Below, piece after piece: positions 328 to 16,175 of a stretch of DNA of 64,000 nucleotides. Position 1 is the first letter of the stretch, and the number at the start of each line of letters is the position of its first letter. The DNA comes from Heterostelium album PN500 (lineage: Eukaryota; Evosea; Eumycetozoa; Acytosteliales; Acytosteliaceae). The notes below the pieces were generated by a model. The model searched no databases. It was not told the origin of the DNA and was given only the letters and a program-made list of their open reading frames with translations. The position numbers were made by a program, and so were the translations under genes. The stretch is from positions 433,941 through 497,940 of the forward strand of contig NW_008805103.1 in NCBI RefSeq assembly GCF_000004825.1, read 5' to 3'.

Positions 328-2247
328 ATGGATAGTGTAAATAGAAGAATTTCGAATATCGAACAACATTTGTCGGTTAATAGTTGTTCGGATGCTGTAC
401 AGACCTCGGGAACATTGGAACCGGTCAGACCGTTCAATCCCGACAAGCTGTTTGAGTATCTGTTTCCACACCACTTGGAGATGCGTCGCCAGTTGATTGC
501 AGAGTTTGAGGCACCAGAGAATGAGTTGATGCAACGTGCACCATTCGGTTTGTCATATACACAGGAGCGTGACCTCACCATGGAGCAAACCAAACGTCTG
601 ATAGAGATTGCCAAGCGCTATGTAAAGGTGATCGACTTTGTTCGCGATCCAACTAAAATTGCCGCATGGACACAGTCCTATCGTATGCGTAACATCGCCA
701 CAACCACTCTGTTCGGTGTGCACTTCTCGCTGTTTGGAGCAACGATTCTGCAGCTCGGTACCGACGAACAGCGTGAAAAGTACTTGAAACACGTCGAGGA
801 CTTCTCAATGCCAGGCTGTTTCGCGCTCACCGAACTCGGCCACGGTTCCAACGTACAGCAAATCGAGACACTCGCCGTCTACGACCACTCCACCGAGGAG
901 TTCATCATCAATTCACCAACCATCACCAGTCAGAAATACTTTATTGGTGGCGCCGCCAAGAATGCGCGTTGGACCGTCGCTTTTGCCCAGTTAAAGGTTG
1001 GCGAGAAATATGAGGGAGTGCACGCCTTCCTCATGAGAATCAGAAACGAAGACGGATCTGTCTGCAATGGTGTCAAGATTGCCGATTGTGGTGTCAAGAT
1101 GGCGTTGAACGGTGTCGACAACGGTCGTCTCATGTTCACCAACTACCGAGTTCCACGTGACCAACTGCTCTCCCGTTTCGGTGGTGTCAACAAAGCCGGT
1201 ATCTACAGCTCGCCAATCAACCCAGCAATCAAGCGTTTCGCACACAACATCGGAGCACTCGTCATCGGTCGTTATATCATCTCGATTGGATGTATCAGTT
1301 TCTCAGCGGTTGGACTTCAGACAGCGATCAACTACGCATTCACAAGACGTCAGTTTGGTGAGGACAACAACGAGCGTCAACTCATTACCTACGCCGTCCA
1401 CCAACGTCGTCTCCTCCCACACTTGGCATTCAACTACGGTATCCACTTTGCCAACGATTATCTACTGCGTCTGCTCGCAGAGAAAGAGAATAGAAAGGAT
1501 AAGGAAATCCATGTTTATGCATCGGCGCTAAAGGCATACTCGTCGTGGCACAACAGAAACTGCTTGCAAGATTGTCGTGAGGCGTGCGGTGGACAAGGTT
1601 TCTTGGCTGACAACCTGATCGGTCCATTCAAGTCAGAGACCGATATCTATACAACATTCGAAGGTGACAATGTTCTGATGTATCAACAGGTCGCCAAATA
1701 TATTCTCACAGAGGCACGTCGTAAGCCACCACCCGAATACAACCCACCCTCAGATGCATTCCGCGCCAAGACCGACTCGAAACACTTAAGATCCTTCGAT
1801 TTCCTCTTACAAGCAATGACAGCACGTCTCAACCAATACGTTGTACTCGTTGCCAACAAGCTGATGGAGGCAGTCGGATCCGGTAAGCCAGTGATGGACG
1901 CTTGGAACGACTGTGGTAGTTATATTCTGAATCTCGGTATCGTATTCACCGATAAATTCATTTTGGAGCGTTTCATCGAGGGAGTCAGTAAGTGTCCCGA
2001 TGACAACCAACGCAAGGCAATGTCATTGCTACTCAGCCTCATGGGATTGTTTATCATCAACAGAGACACATGGTTCATCAAGTATCAATTTATTTCAGTC
2101 GATCAATCAGATGCCATCGAAAACGAAATCTCTGATCTTTGTAAAGAAATTGCACCAATCTCTATAGCACTCGCCGAAGGTTTTGGATTCTCAACAAAGA
2201 CAATGGGTCCAATCGGTAGAGATTGGATTGCTGAAAATAGATATTGA
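328..2247 (+). CDS. Peroxisomal acyl-CoA oxidase with N-terminal PTS2
   Basis: The 639-aa product is a FAD-dependent acyl-CoA oxidase, the enzyme of the first step of peroxisomal beta-oxidation (acyl-CoA + O2 to trans-2-enoyl-CoA + H2O2). Family landmarks visible: the substrate/FAD loop CFALTELGHGSN (about residue 164), the TRRQFGE motif (about 338), and the acyl-CoA dehydrogenase C-domain signature EACGGQGFL (about 430). Length fits the family (about 630-700 aa). The C-terminus ends AENRY, so there is no SKL-type PTS1. Instead residues 7-15 read RISNIEQHL, a perfect PTS2 (R-I-x5-H-L). The gene is a single exon. The start ATG at 328 keeps the PTS2 at the expected N-terminal position. A poly-A-like AATAAA lies about 50 bp downstream. 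Confidence 0.95.
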   Translation: MDSVNRRISNIEQHLSVNSCSDAVQTSGTLEPVRPFNPDKLFEYLFPHHLEMRRQLIAEFEAPENELMQRAPFGLSYTQERDLTMEQTKRLIEIAKRYVKVIDFVRDPTKIAAWTQSYRMRNIATTTLFGVHFSLFGATILQLGTDEQREKYLKHVEDFSMPGCFALTELGHGSNVQQIETLAVYDHSTEEFIINSPTITSQKYFIGGAAKNARWTVAFAQLKVGEKYEGVHAFLMRIRNEDGSVCNGVKIADCGVKMALNGVDNGRLMFTNYRVPRDQLLSRFGGVNKAGIYSSPINPAIKRFAHNIGALVIGRYIISIGCISFSAVGLQTAINYAFTRRQFGEDNNERQLITYAVHQRRLLPHLAFNYGIHFANDYLLRLLAEKENRKDKEIHVYASALKAYSSWHNRNCLQDCREACGGQGFLADNLIGPFKSETDIYTTFEGDNVLMYQQVAKYILTEARRKPPPEYNPPSDAFRAKTDSKHLRSFDFLLQAMTARLNQYVVLVANKLMEAVGSGKPVMDAWNDCGSYILNLGIVFTDKFILERFIEGVSKCPDDNQRKAMSLLLSLMGLFIINRDTWFIKYQFISVDQSDAIENEISDLCKEIAPISIALAEGFGFSTKTMGPIGRDWIAENRY

Positions 2248-3819: not shown

Positions 3820-6800
3820 TTATTTATTTTCTAATTTAACCATATTAATACCTTTACGGAAATGGAAAGAATATTTTCTTTTCAATAATAGCACAACAGC
3901 TGTTATTACAATGATACCAAATACAACGGATCCAACGATGATACCAGCTATCTTAGCATTTGATAATCCTGAGTTCGATTGGCCACATTTATCGGGATCC
4001 TGATCAACCAACAAACTGAAATCTGGATCTAATAATGCTGAATTCTCATAGTATGGAATATCGATTCCAACCAATGATGTGGTTATTGTTGAAGATTCGC
4101 TTGAATTTTGCTGACCTGGATTGATTAATTTGTTGGTTAAAGATTGAATACGATAATCGATGATTCCAAAGTTGATGAATCTGGCAAAGAGAGTCTTTCC
4201 ATTGATTTGAAGTTTCAAATATTGAATTTCAGATGATTGTGTGTCATCACTGAAATCAGAGGTGATACATGAACTGTCTGAATCGGAAAGTGACAATGTG
4301 GCATTGATCACCAATTGAAGTGTATTCAGCTTGTCTTTGAATTGATATGAATCAAATCAAAATTGAATATTTCATTGATGATGGTGACATTGAATATTCT
4401 TTGTTTCCAAACGAATAGTTGGATTGTTTCTCGAAGTATTGAAGAGTAACGTTCAATCTTGTTGTTCTATTTGATGCGAGTGTTGTGCTGAATTGATAAA
4501 GTGTTGTGTCTGTTGTTGATTTGTTTTCGAATGACCAATTATCATTGAGTCCAAATTCCAAAACAGTATTTCCTTGTGAATCCAATTCTCTGATCGATGA
4601 GATTGAAATCAATGAATTCAGCGTGTTGGATTTATCTATCTGTGTGGTTGTTGGTTTGGTTGAATCGACATTGGTTGTCACATCGATAAGTTGGAGTGAA
4701 CAAGTTGGTCCAGCCCATCCACTGTTGCATACACATCCATTGTCAGTACATTTACCATGTTCTGTGCATAGAGGTGGACATGTAGTTGGGGTAGTTGTTG
4801 GTGTCGAAGTCGGAGTTGGAATGATAAGATTTGGAATAATTCTTAGAGTACTGCTCGCTCTACCACTACTGATTTTAAGGTCATAGAAGTTGTTTTGGTC
4901 AAATGCTGGAAGGTTCAAAATCATCATTGTAAAAGTACAAAATGTTGGAGCTTGAATAGACATTGAAGGACCATTCGATCTAATGGTTGGAGTAACGTTG
5001 GAAGAGTCATTTCCAAATGATTTGCCATAAACTGTCAATAGTCCACCAGCTGTTGAAATTGGTTCGTATGATTCCAAAAGTAAAGTTGGATTGATTAATC
5101 TTTTAATTGACAGATTATTGGCAATGGCGTTACCAATGAAAAGCTTTTTAGAAACGGCTCCATGCACAGTCAATACGCAGTCGAGAGTTGCTTCACCTAG
5201 ACCATAGGGAATAGGTATTCTGGCCTTATATTTAGCGGATGTACTATCATAGGTAGAAAGAGCGAAAACTCTGGTACTTGGGCAATCCAATACTGCCAAG
5301 GGGAAATGTCTTATCGAAACACCGTCGGTCGAACCATCAACAGTGAAATTCACATCTAAATATTTATCGCTACCAACATCCAGTGTATCTGTGGATGCAA
5401 TTATATTTTGAATTGAAGGTGGAGTGTTTCCAAGAGTATTCGGGCAACTTGAAGCAGTTGAGATGAAAAGTTGACTTGCAAGTGGTGTGAAATATATTTT
5501 TTCCAATGGATCAAAAGCTGATTGTATATTGCCGTTGTATGACTGAGATGTGATTCCATTTGCGTCAACCAGTAGCACTTGATCTTTGAATGTAAAGTTT
5601 TGTTGAACACAGGTTTTGGCATCGATTGAAATTCGAATTGAATAGACACCATTGAATTGATCACCGGAGCTAGCTTGAGAAGGTGTTAAGCTGAATTGGT
5701 ATGGCAAAAAATCTAGATCCGAAGTAACATTAAAAAATGCCTGAGATAATCCATTTGGTGAATCTTGAATAGTGATATCCCATCCAAATGTCAAAATTTC
5801 TTTTCCTGGTGATAAAGAAGGTGAAATAGCACGGAGATCTACTATCATTGGAGGATATAAATCGGAATCTGTATTATACCAAATTAATAAATTAGAAATT
5901 GTCAATTTGATTTTCTTTTTTTCTTTATCTTACTTTTAGAAGTAACTTTAAGAATAGCATTACTAAATTTAGATAAGATTAATTGGCTGTAGATAGGAGG
6001 ATAGGAAACAAGTTCATAGTTAACTACACCTTCGAATAGATTTCTTTGAAGTTGGAAATCGATTTGATACTGGTTGATAAGTGGATTCCAGAATCCAGTG
6101 AACGTGGTCATTCTTTTGTTGATTGCCGAGTTGATGATATTCAATTGTGGTGAGTAATCTTTGATTGGAGTTTTTACACTGAAGAATAACGAGTTGTTTG
6201 ATATTAAATTACTGACATCAAGGATATTATTCTTGAAACTAAATGAAACTATATCTTCGATTGTCCATGCAATGGGTGTAGGAATGGAAGGAATTACATC
6301 TAGCGATGCAGTCATATCACCAGTTTTCCATTGGAGATACTTGTTTGCATAGTTTGTAACTCCGAAATTGAGAGTGTTGTCTTTTAAGTTGCTGATGGAA
6401 ATTCTCTTTTGATAGACACCGTTGAGGTATGTTCCATAGACAAGATCTGCCTGTGTTATTCTGGAGGGTGGATTGATTATATCGACCGCCAAAACGCCGC
6501 TGTCATCAGTTATATTCATTGTAAGAAGAACAGAGTCATATGAAACCGGAACAATATCCAATTTCCAAATACTTGTAACACCAGAATAACTCTTGCCGGC
6601 TATAAATAGGATTTATATATTAGTACTAATAAACTCACAATTAAATTAAATTAATTTATCTCTTACTTATGGTATAAGCAGTTATCAAAGAGCTGGAATC
6701 AAATTGCAAAATGGCATTTCTTGTTGTCGTGTAAGTAGAATCTACCATTAATATGGTAATTGAAAGCGATCTTACTGTACCACTTATACCCATTGGGAAA

Positions 6801-8068
6801 GGCATGGTAGCCACGAATGATCCTCCTTTGATTCTGTCATTATAAATATTTGATACTGGAATATTGGTAGTCGATATCACGCAGTTACCATTATTGGTTT
6901 GAGCCAAAAAACTATTAACTGGAATCACCATAGGATACACTTTTCATAGCAATGAAAACAAATTAATAAATTAGGAAAATAAAAAAAATACTTGTAGTTT
7001 ATAAATTACATACATGTATAATTAAAAATCTTTGGCATTGTGTTTGAGCTAGCAAGTCCTCCATTCATGATATACAAGTCCGCTTGGGTTAGAATGGATG
7101 AGCGAAGTACATATGGCAAATAATAGGTACTCCTCTCGTTATTTCCGAGTACTGGATAGGGTGATCCATACTGGGGTGAAAAGAAATTCGATGAAAGTTG
7201 GTTTATATCGAAATAGTAACCATATGAGAGCATAGCAGCATTTTGTTGTGCAACAATAGAGTTATTCGGGGCGATACCTCTAATCGAAATGAATGTTTGT
7301 GGTGAATTCAAGGTTGTTAATGCTGGTAGTGTTAGATTTCCAAGTACTTTGAATGATGAATACACTGGAAGATTGACACTGCTGGAGTAAGTACAGCTCT
7401 GAGTTCCTTTAAGAGTGACTGTAAATCCATAGTAGGCAGAGGATCTACCGAATGAACCTAAAGAGTCGGGTTGAAAATTGTAGCATTTTGTCAATGTATT
7501 TGCATAATCGAGTGTGTAACCAGCATTGGGATCACCTAAAAGTATCAAACTTAATTTGTTCATCGATATATAATCGAAATATTGAACAGTTGGTAGTTTT
7601 GGTGTGATAACTATTAATTTGTTTAAAAAAAGTTGGTCAAACTCTTTAATCTAATCAAATCTATCTTATCAAATACCTACGATTACAAATAAATTGAACG
7701 TCAGTTGAGTTTTGATCATTGTTTACAGTGTTGGTAAAAGAGAAGGTTGCAGTTATAGGCGAGTTGGAAGCGGTAATAACCACATTAAGATTATATCGAT
7801 GAGAGTACGTGGAAAGGTCTACCTGTTGACCGTTACCTTGAACCCCTATATTTGGACCATTAACGGTTGGATTCCCAAAAACGAGTTGGTCATGTGAAGT
7901 AATACCAAAGTTGACATCTATAGTACATGTTTTCTGTATTAAATTTATGAATGGTGGTGATTGTGTTACTTTATCAATAAAGAAATGTGATTCAACTGTA
8001 TTTGGATTTATAGATATTAAAAGGAATAGAAAAGCAATTTTGCAAATTAAATTCTTATATATATTCAT
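3820..8068 (-). CDS. ComC-like EGF-domain membrane protein, with one frameshift
   Basis: Five exons by phase: 8068-7681, 7610-7014, 6939-6667, 6599-5934 and 5868-3820, all joined in phase 1. The N-terminus is a signal peptide (hydrophobic AFLFLLI core). A long Ser/Thr/Asn-rich beta-sandwich ectodomain follows, then an E-set/IPT-like segment, a cysteine-rich EGF module (CTEHGKCTDNGCVCNSGWAG) and a Ser/Thr-rich stalk. The C-terminus has one membrane helix (IAGIIVGSVVFGIIVI) and a short basic tail. This is the architecture of the dictyostelid ComC/EGF-like adhesion and communication family. The summed exons are 3973 nt, one more than a multiple of three. The extra base lies in the last exon near 4351, where the plus strand reads CAAAT but the paralogue's complement has CAAT. 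It separates the ectodomain frame from the helix. It may be a pseudogene or a sequencing error. Confidence 0.8.
4129..4731 (-). repeat. Gene-conversion tract, copy 1 (inverted relative to 11803-12404)
   Basis: I compared this tract base by base by eye with the complement of 11803-12404. The two match over about 602 positions with one synonymous C/T difference (near 4510) and one extra base here (near 4351). Outside the tract the two genes are clearly diverged on both sides: the EGF module just upstream differs, and the sequence after NKL(I) differs at many sites. The sharp edges are those expected of recent gene conversion between inverted paralogues. Confidence 0.9.
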
Positions 8069-8522
8069 ATCTTAGATAAACAAAGAAATTTTTAAATTCA
8101 AAACAATAATGATTTAAAAAACAAAGTTGTTTTTGTTGTTGCAAGAAAATTCAGACTTTTGCAATTGGATTTACCAAAGGTTATCGCTTTTTTTTTTTTC
8201 TTCCAAAATAAACCAAAATTCGTGTCCATTATGAGAAAACTTTTGCTAAACCACGGTTTTTGATCTAAGATTTCAGCAAAATTCCAAGTTCTATTGAATC
8301 AACACCCGACAATAATGTGGGAGGTCGTAAGAATTGATGAGTTTAGATTTTTTTTTTTGCTGGTCTCAAAAGCTTTCGAGATTTTTTTTATGCAAATTTC
8401 TCAAATGTGATCTTTATTTTTTTTTATATTCGAAAATATATATAGTTGTTTTTTGAAGGAAAAGGCTTTAGTCCAAAAAACAAAACATAAGTTGTTATAT
8501 TAATTATTAATAAAATATAGAA
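8069..8522. promoter_or_regulatory. Shared divergent promoter of the two ComC-like genes
   Basis: These 454 bp separate the start codons of two head-to-head paralogous genes, so both promoters must lie here or overlap into the genes. The segment has several long T runs, a TATA-like AT stretch near 8440 and a less AT-rich island near 8300-8335. No specific operator is recognised. Confidence 0.6.
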
Positions 8523-11500
8523 ATGAAATTGTCTTTTTATATATATCTATTTGTATTTTTTCTTATTATTGTGAATGGTAGTTATGGTTTGACTTTGTTA
8601 AAAAACTCTGTTGTTACCGACACCCAATTCGTTTTGAACGGATACAATAACGCAGAGGGTTGTTACATCACCTATTCGTTTGCTCTCAGTACAAATGATG
8701 CTAAAAAAAATATAACGTTTAAGTGGGATCAAAATGGTTGCTTAGACGGAACACAACAATTATTACTATCTGTATCACAATCACAAGTCATAGCTTCGGG
8801 AGCTTGCTTTTTCCCAGTGGGTACCAAGGTTTACACACTTTCAGTTTATGACACTGCAGGTTTATCATATGATTATAAATGGCGTTCATTTTGTAACAGT
8901 AAGTTATTAAATACTCAAAAAAATTCAAAAAATAATATACTTATTAATTAATCTAACATTTATTTTTCATAGAACCTCAATTTAGTCCAGAATTAAAGTC
9001 AACAATGATGAATGCCTACGGAGATATGTTGGTAACTTTGAAGGTTGAGCCTGGAGTAAAGTATAATGTCGGATATATTTTTGGGGGTTCTGGCTTCAAT
9101 CCAAATTGTTATAGGTTCAGCGATATCGATGGATATGGAAGTTCCATGGCTACATTGACTATATCGTTGAATACCTATTTCTCCTGTCCTTTCACCGTTC
9201 CTTTCACAGCCACTCTATTTGTAAACGATTATGCTATTACCAACATTTCAATTCCAGCACCTTTTAGTTTTCCATACACTACCAATTCTATTAAATACTA
9301 TGGAAATGAATTGAATTTCACCATGAAGACACCTACCTACGATCTTATGAGAACACGTATTCAAGCTAAGAATGTGGATTGTTTTTTCAAGAATTTTGTA
9401 AGTCTTCCAAATGATGATTATGTTGCTGCCACCCGAGTTGGAAATGATGAATATTACCTTATCAACTATCTAAATTACACCTCTATTTTTGGCTATAGAG
9501 TCGTCACTATTGGTACCAATAGAACACAGAGTCCTGAAATAGTATATAATGCAAAGAGTTAGTAAATTAATATATCTTAAATATTTTCTTTTTTAATATT
9601 AATTAATTAATTATTTTTTTCCAGGTTTTTACAACAATGCTGCACTTTCCATCACAAACAATTTCAACGGACAATCAAATACCTATTCATGGTTTCTTAT
9701 AGCAGCGTCTATTTCACAAATGTCAAAGTATTCAGTGGTAATGAAATATAATTCAAGTGTTTTACCAGATCAAAACCTTCCATACCCAATTGGATTTGGT
9801 TCTGGTAATAAGTTATTTGCCCTACTTAAGTTTGTACCGAATTATTCACAGTATTTTTATAGTGTGATTTCAAGTAATAATAAGGATTCCCTACAGAATG
9901 GAAAGTTACTTACGTAAGTTGAAAACTATGATAATAGAAGTTAATTGCTAACCACTTTCTTAGTCGAACAGTTATAGATACTACACCACCCTTGTTAAAT
10001 TCATTTAAATTAATACCTTTTGGATTTCAGACTTTTATTCTTCAGGTCAATATCTCTGATAGTGAATCTGGATTTTTATCGATGACCCAAACCTACCCTT
10101 TTGGAATTACAATTACCCATAGAGACTTGATGGATGGATCTATATATTCTGGTCTTTATGAAAAGCAGGTTTTTGTTCCCAACAATAATAAAGTTAACGT
10201 TTTCGGTTTTACAGTGAAAGATCTAGCTGGCAATAGTAGAGCATATGGAACCAATAGTTTTTTGACCAACTACAATATACTCCCACAGATTCCTTACAAC
10301 GTCAATTTCACAATTGACAATATCATATCATTTATGTTCCTCGACAAGAGATTAAATGTTACCGACAGGATGGCCAATTCAACAGCTTATTTCAGATTAG
10401 ATACACCAAATACTCAGCTTCAACCAAAGATTACCTTTATTTGGGCAAGATTTGGAGATGCAAATTATAATTCCACATTCACTGGATTTTGGAATTCAGT
10501 TATCCAATCCTATCAAATAGACTTTGGCATTAGCATGAATTATATTAGTGGAAGTATCGATTACATCATAGAGAGTAACCCACCAGTTTCCAGGGAGATT
10601 CTAATTTCAAAGTTTGGAGATGTTGCAAAGTTAATTATTGATTCTGCAAGTAAGTTATTTTAATTTATATATCTTTAAAGAAAATATTAATGTTAAAGTA
10701 TATTTTTATTTTTTCAAAAAAGAAATTGATTATCAACCACCAGTCATTACCAATATATTGAAATTTCCAACAGGTTGGGATATTACTATATCAGATCCTA
10801 TCAATGGTCTGAAGATAGCATATTTCAATGTAACTTCTGATCTAGATCCACTTCCCTATCAATATACTTTCACACCATCTGATGCAATCTCTGGAGATCT
10901 CAACTCTGGTGTCTACAGAATTAATTTAAATGGTGTAATGTGTGTGAATCAAAATTTTTCATTTATCGATGGAGTAAAGTTGGTAGATAATGGAGGTAAC
11001 TTTGCTCAATCATTTTACGCAAACCAAGAATCCTACTTTGATCCATTTGAAATGTATCCTGATGTTGACAGTGCAAATCTATTGTACAGCTGTGACTCAA
11101 AGCCCGATACAACTCCACCATCCCTTGTAGTTAGGGTAGATGCAAATCAGCCTCAATATATTTCGGTATTTGTCAATGCTTCTGATCCAGATTCAGGAAT
11201 TTCATCGAGACATAACCCAGTCGTTTATATTACAGGTTTGGGTGATGAATTTATTGTTCCAATGACACACATAGAGGCCTATCAGTTTTATACTATTTAT
11301 CAAGAGCTCATCAAAGTTCCTTTTAATTTCGGAATTGAAAGAACACAATTTGGTATCGGAGTATATGGTATCTGCAATAATCAATTGAACTATTTTGCAT
11401 CTGTTTCGATACAGTCTTTTAATTATACTTTTAGCAATTTCGCAGTTCTTCAAGGAGCTAGTCAAATTTCTGAGGAAGGTGGAGCATTGACGATTAGTGG

Positions 11501-12710
11501 TGCAGGGTTTGGTAACAATAGTTTGTCTATTACTCCATATGTAAGATATTCGCTGGATTCCCATTACGTACCAATTAGTTCACCCAGCTTTTTAACATTT
11601 ACCAATGCCATTATAAATATTCCTGCGTTTGGATCGAATGGTTATGCCGAATTATATTTCAATTATTCGCAAGGATATGTAACCAACATATTAAGGATAA
11701 TTCCGAGTGTAGTACAACTACCCACACAAACTCCCAGTGGTACACCGGCTTCTTGTCCTCAATCTTGCTCTGGTCATGGTGATTGCACACCCACTGGATG
11801 CTTATGCAACAGTGGATGGGCTGGACCAACTTGTTCACTCCAACTTATCGATGTGACAACCAATGTCGATTCAACCAAACCAACAACCACACAGATAGAT
11901 AAATCCAACACGCTGAATTCATTGATTTCAATCTCATCGATCAGAGAATTGGATTCACAAGGAAATACTGTTTTGGAATTTGGACTCAATGATAATTGGT
12001 CATTCGAAAACAAATCAACAACAGATACAACACTTTATCAATTCAGCACAACACTCGCATCAAATAGAACAACAAGATTGAACGTTACTCTTCAATACTT
12101 CGAGAAACAATCCAACTATTCGTTTGGAAACAAAGAATATTCAATGTCACCATCATCAATGAAATATTCAATTTTGATTGATTCATATCAATTCAAAGAC
12201 AAGCTGAATACACTTCAATTGGTGATCAATGCCACATTGTCACTTTCCGATTCAGACAGTTCATGTATCACCTCTGATTTCAGTGATGACACACAATCAT
12301 CTGAAATTCAATATTTGAAACTTCAAATCAATGGAAAGACTCTCTTTGCCAGATTCATCAACTTTGGAATCATCGATTATCGTATTCAATCTTTAACCAA
12401 CAAACTAATCAGTCCAGATCAACAACATTCAGGCGAATCTTCAACAATAACCACATCATTGGTTGGAATCAATATTCCATACTATGAGAGCTCAGTATTA
12501 TTAGATCCAGATTTCAGTTTGTTGGTTGATCAGGATCCCAATAAATGTGGCCAATCGAACTCAGGATTATCAAATGCTAAGATAGCTGGTATCATCGTTG
12601 GATCCGTTGTTTTCGGAGTGATCATAGTGATTGCCGCCGTATTAATATTAAAACGACGTTATGTATTCCGTTTCGATAAAGGTATAAATATGGTTAAAAT
12701 ATCTAAATAA
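8523..12710 (+). CDS. ComC-like EGF-domain membrane protein, intact
   Basis: Exons 8523-8898, 8973-9557, 9625-9913, 9964-10649 and 10723-12710 join in frame to 1307 aa. The signal peptide has a hydrophobic IYLFVFFLIIV core. A large Asn-glycosylatable ectodomain follows, with paired segments matching the neighbouring paralogue exon by exon. Next come an E-set/IPT-like region (EEGGALTISGAGFGNN), an EGF module (CSGHGDCTPTGCLCNSGWAG), a Ser/Thr-rich stalk and one transmembrane helix (AGIIVGSVVFGVIIVI) with a short basic cytoplasmic tail. Family knowledge: such dictyostelid proteins are cell-surface proteins implicated in cell-cell communication or adhesion during development. The gene is head-to-head with its paralogue, and its stalk-coding region is almost identical to it (11803-12404), while the rest is diverged. 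The ligand is unknown. Confidence 0.88.
11803..12404 (+). repeat. Gene-conversion tract, copy 2 (inverted relative to 4129-4731)
   Basis: This is the partner of the tract in the left paralogue. It begins inside the EGF module, two codons before the GWAG motif, and ends just after the codons for LTNK. In this copy the reading frame is open throughout, so it shows the frame that copy 1 has lost. Confidence 0.9.
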
Positions 12711-15281: not shown

Positions 15282-16175
15282 ATGAGTACTTTAGTTGCAA
15301 GAGAATTTGGTGGTTTTCCAAAGTCAGCACCAGTCGAACCACCTACTCAACTCAAACGTCAAAAGATGAGTGAGGACGATCTTTTGTATTCCTTGAAGGA
15401 TATGTACAAAAGTGATTTCAAGGAGTATCCAACTCAACTGGAAATCGAACGTCCCAACCGTTACGATCTGTCCGAAGGTGCCAACGAAGAACTTGATCGA
15501 CTCATGGATGAGGAATTCGAAAAAGCTCACGAGAAGAAGCTGCCAAGCAACGATCCAAAGAGAAAAGAATCAAAGATGAAGAAGAATAAGGACAATAAGA
15601 AGGAGAAGAAGCCAAAGGACAAGAAGAAGGAGAAGAAAGACAAGAAGGAGAAGGATAAGGAGAAGAAGAAGGAAAAGAAGGAGAAGAAAGATAAGAAGGA
15701 CAAGAAGAAGGATAAGAAGTCCAAACTATCAATGTCATCATCTCAAGAGATCGAAAGTGAATTTCCACTGGAAGACACCATCTTTGAGGATCTCGAGCTC
15801 CTGGATTTGTGGGATAGCGACGAGTCAGAAGATGGCTCCATAGAGATTCTGGAGATTGTCGAATTTGAAATCGAGTCTGATATCGATGAGGAAGAGGAGA
15901 TGCCAAAGAAGAAGAAGGAAAAGAAGGACAAGAAAAAGGAAAAGAAAGATAAGAAGGAGAAGAAGCTAGAGGATAAAGATAAGAAGAGAGAAAAGAAGGA
16001 GAAGAAAGAGAAGAAGGAGAAGAAGCAACTCTCAGATGATGGCGAGCAATATCTCAACCTCCAGAAGAAGAACCCTCAAAGTTTAAACCAAGAGTTCAAA
16101 GCTGACACCTCTGATATTCCATGTTACTCTTGGACCTATGTTGATGGTAAACTCTATTCCAACAACAGAGCATAA
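15282..16175 (+). CDS. Lysine-rich low-complexity protein, unknown function
   Basis: Single exon of 297 aa. I chose the ATG at 15282 (context AAAATG) because the upstream in-frame GTG at 15261 is not a plausible eukaryotic start. The N-terminal 95 residues are of normal composition and look folded or partly folded (LLYSLKDMYKSDF, EELDRLMDEEF). Two Lys/Glu/Asp repeat blocks of KKEKK type (about residues 95-150 and 210-255) flank an acidic segment (about 155-210, rich in E, D, S and I). A short ordinary tail follows, with CYSWTYVDGKLYSNNRA at the end. I do not recognise a family. The basic blocks could act in nucleic-acid binding or nuclear localisation. The tail motif WTYVDGKLYS may be worth a search. 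Confidence 0.75.
   Translation: MSTLVAREFGGFPKSAPVEPPTQLKRQKMSEDDLLYSLKDMYKSDFKEYPTQLEIERPNRYDLSEGANEELDRLMDEEFEKAHEKKLPSNDPKRKESKMKKNKDNKKEKKPKDKKKEKKDKKEKDKEKKKEKKEKKDKKDKKKDKKSKLSMSSSQEIESEFPLEDTIFEDLELLDLWDSDESEDGSIEILEIVEFEIESDIDEEEEMPKKKKEKKDKKKEKKDKKEKKLEDKDKKREKKEKKEKKEKKQLSDDGEQYLNLQKKNPQSLNQEFKADTSDIPCYSWTYVDGKLYSNNRA

Follow-up and report, generated by a model that had tools for sequence, protein, structure and literature searches.

Probable recurrent gene conversion of the membrane-proximal module in clustered ComC-type surface-protein genes of Heterostelium album

Two adjoining genes of Heterostelium album PN500 share a tract of about 602 bp that is almost identical between them, although most of the rest of the two genes is old and strongly diverged. 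The genes, here called A and B, lie head to head in a stretch of 64,000 nucleotides (the window; positions 433941-497940 of contig C38), which we analyzed together with the 39 contigs, 32.9 Mb in all, of the surveyed genome. Both genes belong to a very large family of ComC-type surface proteins, within which they are old paralogues, and the tract corresponds to a membrane-proximal part of the protein. Recurrent interlocus gene conversion, homogenizing this membrane-proximal module among clustered genes in either orientation, is very probably the explanation. Gene conversion between paralogues is well known; here it would be confined to one module and act in several clusters, leaving the outer domains free to diverge. 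In a partial literature search, we found no report of gene conversion in this ComC-type family among the titles and abstract openings returned.

The near-identical tract (zone 1, Table 1) spans the latter half of the EGF module and the greater part of the C-terminal supersandwich domain, ComC_SSD (hereafter SSD). Across it, A and B differ by one synonymous mismatch (position 4508 in A, 12026 in B) and by one extra T in A near position 4354. No amino acid is changed, and with substitutions at 1/131 synonymous sites, the synonymous divergence (dS) is 0.008 and the nonsynonymous divergence (dN) is 0 over 200 codons. Over 347 aligned codons on the upstream side of this exon, identity is 50% for DNA and 41% for protein, and dS is 2.4. 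Downstream, likeness fades in two steps. In zone 2, 12 of 208 bases are mismatched (94% identity; dS 0.11 and dN 0.05 over 70 codons), and in zone 3, which encodes the membrane and tail region, identity falls to 66% for DNA and 58% for amino acids (dS 1.27 and dN 0.33 over 31 codons). The sequence beyond the two stop codons is likewise diverged. Four levels of dS therefore follow one another along a single exon (2.4, 0.008, 0.11 and 1.3), the zone edges used in the computation being approximate to a codon.

This uneven distribution of differences is far from what random placement would give. Allowing one mismatch at most, the longest run of A/B alignment spans 602 aligned sites, and no run exceeded 50 when the mismatch positions were shuffled 10,000 times. 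Exons 1 to 3 of the two genes show little or no recognizable relationship (z of 2.3, 2.3 and 0.4 against shuffled sequence), and exon 4 is clearly related (z of 32). Summarized by domain, A and B are 98.2% identical in the SSD and 55.6% identical in the ectodomain. A preliminary description of this DNA had proposed a recent gene conversion between inverted, head-to-head ComC-like genes, involving a tract of about 602 bp with one synonymous difference and one extra base that covers the end of the EGF module and the membrane-proximal stalk. The length, the differences, the content and the inverted arrangement of the tract all held up, and the conversion is well supported, given flanks that are homologous and in register. 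The description had also placed strong divergence on both sides of the tract. This is correct on the 5' side, but on the 3' side the 208 bp of zone 2 intervene, and similarity collapses only in the membrane and tail region.

An outgroup comparison shows why shared ancestry alone does not account for the tract. As a yardstick, we used pairwise identities to three tandem genes on contig C2 (the C2 trio), pooling the pieces of A on either side of the stop codon that its extra T creates. In the last exon before the EGF module, amino acid identity is 40% between A and B, 34-38% between A and the trio, and 38-40% between B and the trio. Judged by these values, A, B and the C2 trio are an old three-way split. 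From the EGF module through the SSD and tail, A and B are 91% identical, and each is only 51-53% identical to the trio. Without transfer, A and B should be about as distant from each other here as either is from the trio, and their closeness therefore indicates that sequence passed between them. Several marks of gene conversion are present at the locus: diverged but homologous flanks, identity at silent positions (extending in the C14 pair described below to parts of an intron), an over-long identical fragment, and outgroup discordance in the pairwise identities. The direction of the A/B transfer is not polarized because zone 1 holds a single silent difference and the C2 lineage is too distant.

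We found that the SSD is widespread in this genome. A search for ComC_SSD gave at least 150 scored matches from 197 candidates and a search with the protein encoded by the B tract at least 135 from 204; their union contains at least 164 matches at no fewer than 159 places. Among the places listed, 83/159 have a neighbor within 12 kb, making 55 adjacent pairs, of which 50 have both genes on one strand, 3 are arranged tail to tail and 2 head to head. The two head-to-head pairs are A/B and a pair on contig C14 (C14:643k-/652k+), and both carry near-identical tracts. Sequence comparisons covered 55 of the 159 places, drawn from the 30 best-scoring SSD loci with 1.5-kb flanks, 5 other loci and 26 longer or shorter stretches, some of them overlapping. 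Two inverted loci about 94 kb apart on contig C31 (L011 at C31:40k- and L012 at 135k+) are 97.5% identical over 2.4 kb including the upstream part, which looks like a recent dispersed duplication, and loci on different contigs (L016 at C38:7.4k and L017 at C3:1137k) are 95.5% identical over 2.4 kb.

The head-to-head pair on C14 repeats the A/B pattern. Its SSDs are 99.1% identical at the DNA level and identical in amino acids over 249 codons, and identity upstream falls from 69% (0-400 bp) through 55% (400-800 bp) to 45% (800-1200 bp); 150 random locus pairs had a mean of 48% in the 400-800 stretch. The C14 tract runs from a point shortly before the EGF module into the cytoplasmic tail and takes in parts of an intron whose middle differs. 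The encoded proteins have DUF7034, EGF-like and ComC_SSD matches. Exon-like open frames run outward on each side, with open frames on the other strand too; between the tracts, this pair may resemble A/B. The pair belongs to an array of six genes, five on the minus strand and one on the plus strand, in which the SSDs are 95.6-99.1% identical in 15/15 pairs. At 750-1250 bp upstream, identity in this array is 40-53% in 14/15 pairs; the remaining pair, at 92%, is a recent tandem duplicate.

Directly repeated neighbors show the same pattern. C3:159k/163k have SSDs that are 98.8% identical and an ectodomain stretch at 54%, and for C5:1167k/1171k the values are 96.1% and 53%. Silent sites are again nearly unchanged, with an SSD dS of 0.02 for the C5 pair, 0.04 for the C3:159k pair and 0.05 for the C14 pair. 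We sorted the 24 computed pairs among the 55 listed adjacent pairs using SSD thresholds of 95% and 85% and an ectodomain threshold of 65%. SSD identity of at least 95% with ectodomain identity of at most 65% was found in 7/24 pairs, and SSD identity of 85-95% with the same ectodomain limit in a further 4. In 9 pairs, the SSD reached at least 85% and the ectodomain exceeded 65%; in the last 4, the SSD fell below 85%. These data fit recurrent local gene conversion within some clusters, among direct and inverted neighbors alike, and by this comparison neither the A/B pair nor its inverted geometry is special. Because direct neighbors show the same SSD-only homogenization, the inverted arrangement is not needed as a cause.

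The C2 trio (L036, L037 and L038; C2:713600-729400, in tandem) is itself built of alternating blocks. It is a mosaic in which the DUF7035-side and EGF-SSD blocks have a dS near 0 and the middle block has a dS of up to 1.1. The N-terminal part is strongly diverged between L036 and L038, and between L037 and L038 one 40-codon window holds about 27 nonsynonymous and 4 synonymous changes.

In the mechanism we favor, copying would be non-reciprocal, as when a break in one gene is repaired from the neighboring gene as template, and the copied stretch would end where homology is lost, at the EGF module on one side and the membrane helix on the other. The proportion of synonymous sites changed differs between zone 1 (1/131 sites) and zone 2 (5/48 sites; Fisher p = 0.006), a contrast suggesting two or more copying events separated in time, probably an earlier one that extended into zone 2 and a more recent one that covered zone 1. 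This process probably also operates in other clusters of the family, among direct and inverted neighbors, keeping the stalk alike locally as the outer parts diverge. The limits at the EGF module and at the helix are likely set either by outer domains and tails having diverged too far to act as template or by selection against changes in them. The outer domains may form a variable recognition or adhesion surface, with the SSD as a shared structural module near the membrane.

Among the alternatives to gene conversion, an assembly or consensus artifact that mixed reads of two moderately similar tracts survives best, and we consider it unlikely. The extra T that breaks gene A falls inside the tract and may be an error. 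The two copies nevertheless differ by two changes, so no contig was simply pasted twice, and their likeness fades through a zone of 94% identity with no single sharp edge. Other clusters also show likeness limited to the SSD, with identities grading from about 85% to 99%, which an error in A/B would not explain.

A recent duplication or unequal crossing over, yielding chimeric genes with a common 3' half, is very improbable for A/B, even though several arrays of the family are alike over whole genes and recent duplication evidently occurs. The A/B likeness ends on both sides in old homologous sequence. A single crossover would have carried the 3' end along, and between inverted copies it would invert the intervening DNA and not duplicate it. 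The diverged tails and post-stop sequence therefore rule out both a simple crossover and a duplication of the gene ends in the recent past, and unequal crossing over and whole-gene duplication were rejected for this pair on the same grounds.

Still less credible is a switch, in which the inverted tracts flip the promoter segment between them and are kept identical for that purpose. The geometry would permit it, as the tracts lie about 7 kb apart (8.3 kb in outer span, 4129-12404) around a common intergenic region, and both head-to-head pairs listed within 12 kb carry near-identical tracts. However, directly repeated neighbors are homogenized alike with no need of inversion, a flip would move both promoters together with the ectodomains and so swap only stalks and tails, and crossing over between inverted copies does not by itself make them identical. 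An explanation by purifying selection on the protein alone, with no DNA transfer, has next to no chance of being right. In its favor, the SSD is listed at 159 or more places and varies less than the ectodomain even when different contigs are compared. However, A and B are nearly identical at silent sites as well, against a dS of 2.4 upstream; identity between the C2 trio and B in zone 1 is just 54%; and the C14 pair has intron parts in common. Synonymous identity thus rules out protein constraint alone for A/B and argues for copying of DNA.

Several observations weigh against recurrent gene conversion or narrow its reach. The evidence comes from a single assembly, which may, with low probability, be in error over the A/B tract, and an extra T is the type of change that read errors make. 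Homogenization is not universal, as the 4/24 pairs below 85% attest, and the 9/24 pairs alike in both parts indicate that simple duplication in the recent past is frequent too. The 7 positive pairs represent only 4 clusters, C14 alone supplying 4 of the pairs, and so are not independent; the computed pairs are moreover a non-random set, made up of the best-scoring SSD loci and chosen regions. The SSD is also more conserved than the ectodomain across contigs (L023/L020, for example, have a dS of 0.59 in the SSD and 1.54 upstream), and several pairs between C27 and C38 or C7 have SSDs at 84-85% with upstream identity of about 50-55%. Part of the contrast between SSD and ectodomain may thus reflect constraint or wider exchange. 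Finally, within the variable block of the C2 trio, a clear excess of dN over dS is seen in just one 40-codon window, in a single pair, so that selection on the ectodomain is at most a possibility.

We next describe the two genes (Table 1). The DNA has a base composition of 32.7% GC and small introns, features that, with the genome size and the Pfam families present, point to a dictyostelid. A and B have five exons each with common intron phases, the third intron excepted; the phases in A are 1, 1, 1 and 1. B begins with a signal-peptide-like N-terminus and ends in a transmembrane stretch and a short tail, both recognized by eye. Its match to ComC_SSD (PF22933) scores 70.9 bits, above the curated cut-off of 24. 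The reference frame of A encodes 1146 amino acids after GT-AG splicing and matches DUF7743, DUF7035 and EGF in Pfam; ComC_SSD is not listed for A at E <= 0.01, its frame stopping within that domain. No TIG family was found in A or B in Pfam at E <= 0.01, and a TIG-like stretch was seen by eye only.

Through the frameshift, the reference frame of A lacks about half of the SSD and the membrane anchor. In the matching frame, 177 codons past the stop are uninterrupted, and differences between A and B in this part are skewed to silent sites, as the dN and dS values of zones 2 and 3 show. The break in the frame of A is therefore recent or a sequence error.

Table 1. Features of the A/B locus (window positions; residues refer to protein B)
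Feature	Position	Strand	Remarks
Zone 1, gene A	4129..4731	-	603 bases; end of EGF module and most of ComC_SSD
Zone 1, gene B	11803..12404	+	602 bases; residues 1006-1206
Zone 2, gene A	3921..4128	-	94% identical to B
Zone 2, gene B	12405..12612	+	residues 1207-1276; ComC_SSD end to membrane helix start
Zone 3, gene A	3820..3920	-	diverged transmembrane/cytoplasmic tail; homologous, in register
Zone 3, gene B	12613..12710	+	diverged transmembrane/cytoplasmic tail
Premature stop	4352..4354	-	made by the extra T in gene A, within the ComC_SSD region
Gene A	3820..8068	-	ATG at 8068; matching tail runs in another frame to stop 3822-3820
Gene A exons	8068-7681, 7610-7014, 6939-6667, 6599-5934, 5868 onward	-	five exons, GT-AG splicing
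Gene B	8523..12710	+	ATG at 8523; 1307 aa
Gene B exons	8523-8898, 8973-9557, 9625-9913, 9964-10649, 10723-12710	+	five exons, GT-AG splicing
Gene B Pfam domains	DUF7743 421-529, DUF7035 647-769, DUF7034 783-874, EGF 990-1017, ComC_SSD 1025-1246	+	residues
Intergenic region	8069..8522	.	454 bp between start codons, 25.6% GC

The intergenic region could possibly serve as a shared divergent promoter. A promoter scan of it, limited to patterns of bacterial type, gave nothing above chance, and a tRNA scan of the window found none. Elsewhere in the window, an open reading frame of 639 amino acids at 328-2247 on the plus strand may encode an acyl-CoA oxidase, and another at 15282-16175 on the plus strand encodes 297 amino acids and is very rich in lysine and glutamate.

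In multigene surface-protein families, interlocus gene conversion produces short, gene-internal tracts between linked paralogues with diverged flanks. The A/B tract is likewise short and gene-internal, and joins linked paralogues with diverged flanks; it differs in that copying affects the membrane-proximal stalk and leaves the outer part untouched.

The A/B arrangement also recalls tgrB1/tgrC1 of Dictyostelium discoideum, a divergent pair of transmembrane surface-protein genes that share a 523-bp promoter (PMC5288501) and lie at a recombination hotspot with duplications and inversions (PMC12324515). Common to both systems are two divergent surface-protein genes over a short region, 454 bp from ATG to ATG here, and a setting of local recombination. 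The proteins differ, since those of tgr have IPT/TIG repeats and A and B follow a DUF7743-DUF7035-(DUF7034)-EGF-ComC_SSD order in Pfam. Recombination sites in tgr are reported within binding regions as well, whereas A/B copying falls in the membrane-proximal module. The tgrB1/tgrC1 pair is an allorecognition locus, and by analogy A and B may have a recognition role.

A and B share with ComC the C-terminal supersandwich domain (PF22933) beside an EGF module. Table 3 of PMC4931340 lists comC with a signal peptide, a transmembrane domain and EGF domains and limits it to group 4, in contrast to the 159 or more ComC_SSD places counted in this genome. The sections of that paper used here place comC among genes of limited conservation and give P. 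pallidum 110 IPT/TIG and 25 EGF-like proteins, with no figure for ComC_SSD genes. Such a low EGF count would mean either that the method behind it was blind to most of the places found here or that many of these lack a recognizable EGF module. A literature search on comC with lagC and Dictyostelium found no paper.

A more far-reaching idea is that this family of some 160 or more genes is a two-layer recognition repertoire, with SSDs made interchangeable among cluster neighbors by local conversion and outer domains so diverged that they are scarcely recognizable as related, and that the A/B and C14 pairs are paired receptors, counterparts of tgrB1/tgrC1. We regard this as speculative and rather doubtful. 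If the pattern is confirmed with reads, it would illustrate how the many recognition or adhesion proteins of a social amoeba may remain structurally compatible as they diversify, and the two divergent gene pairs, A/B and C14, would be the first candidates for self/non-self recognition in this lineage.

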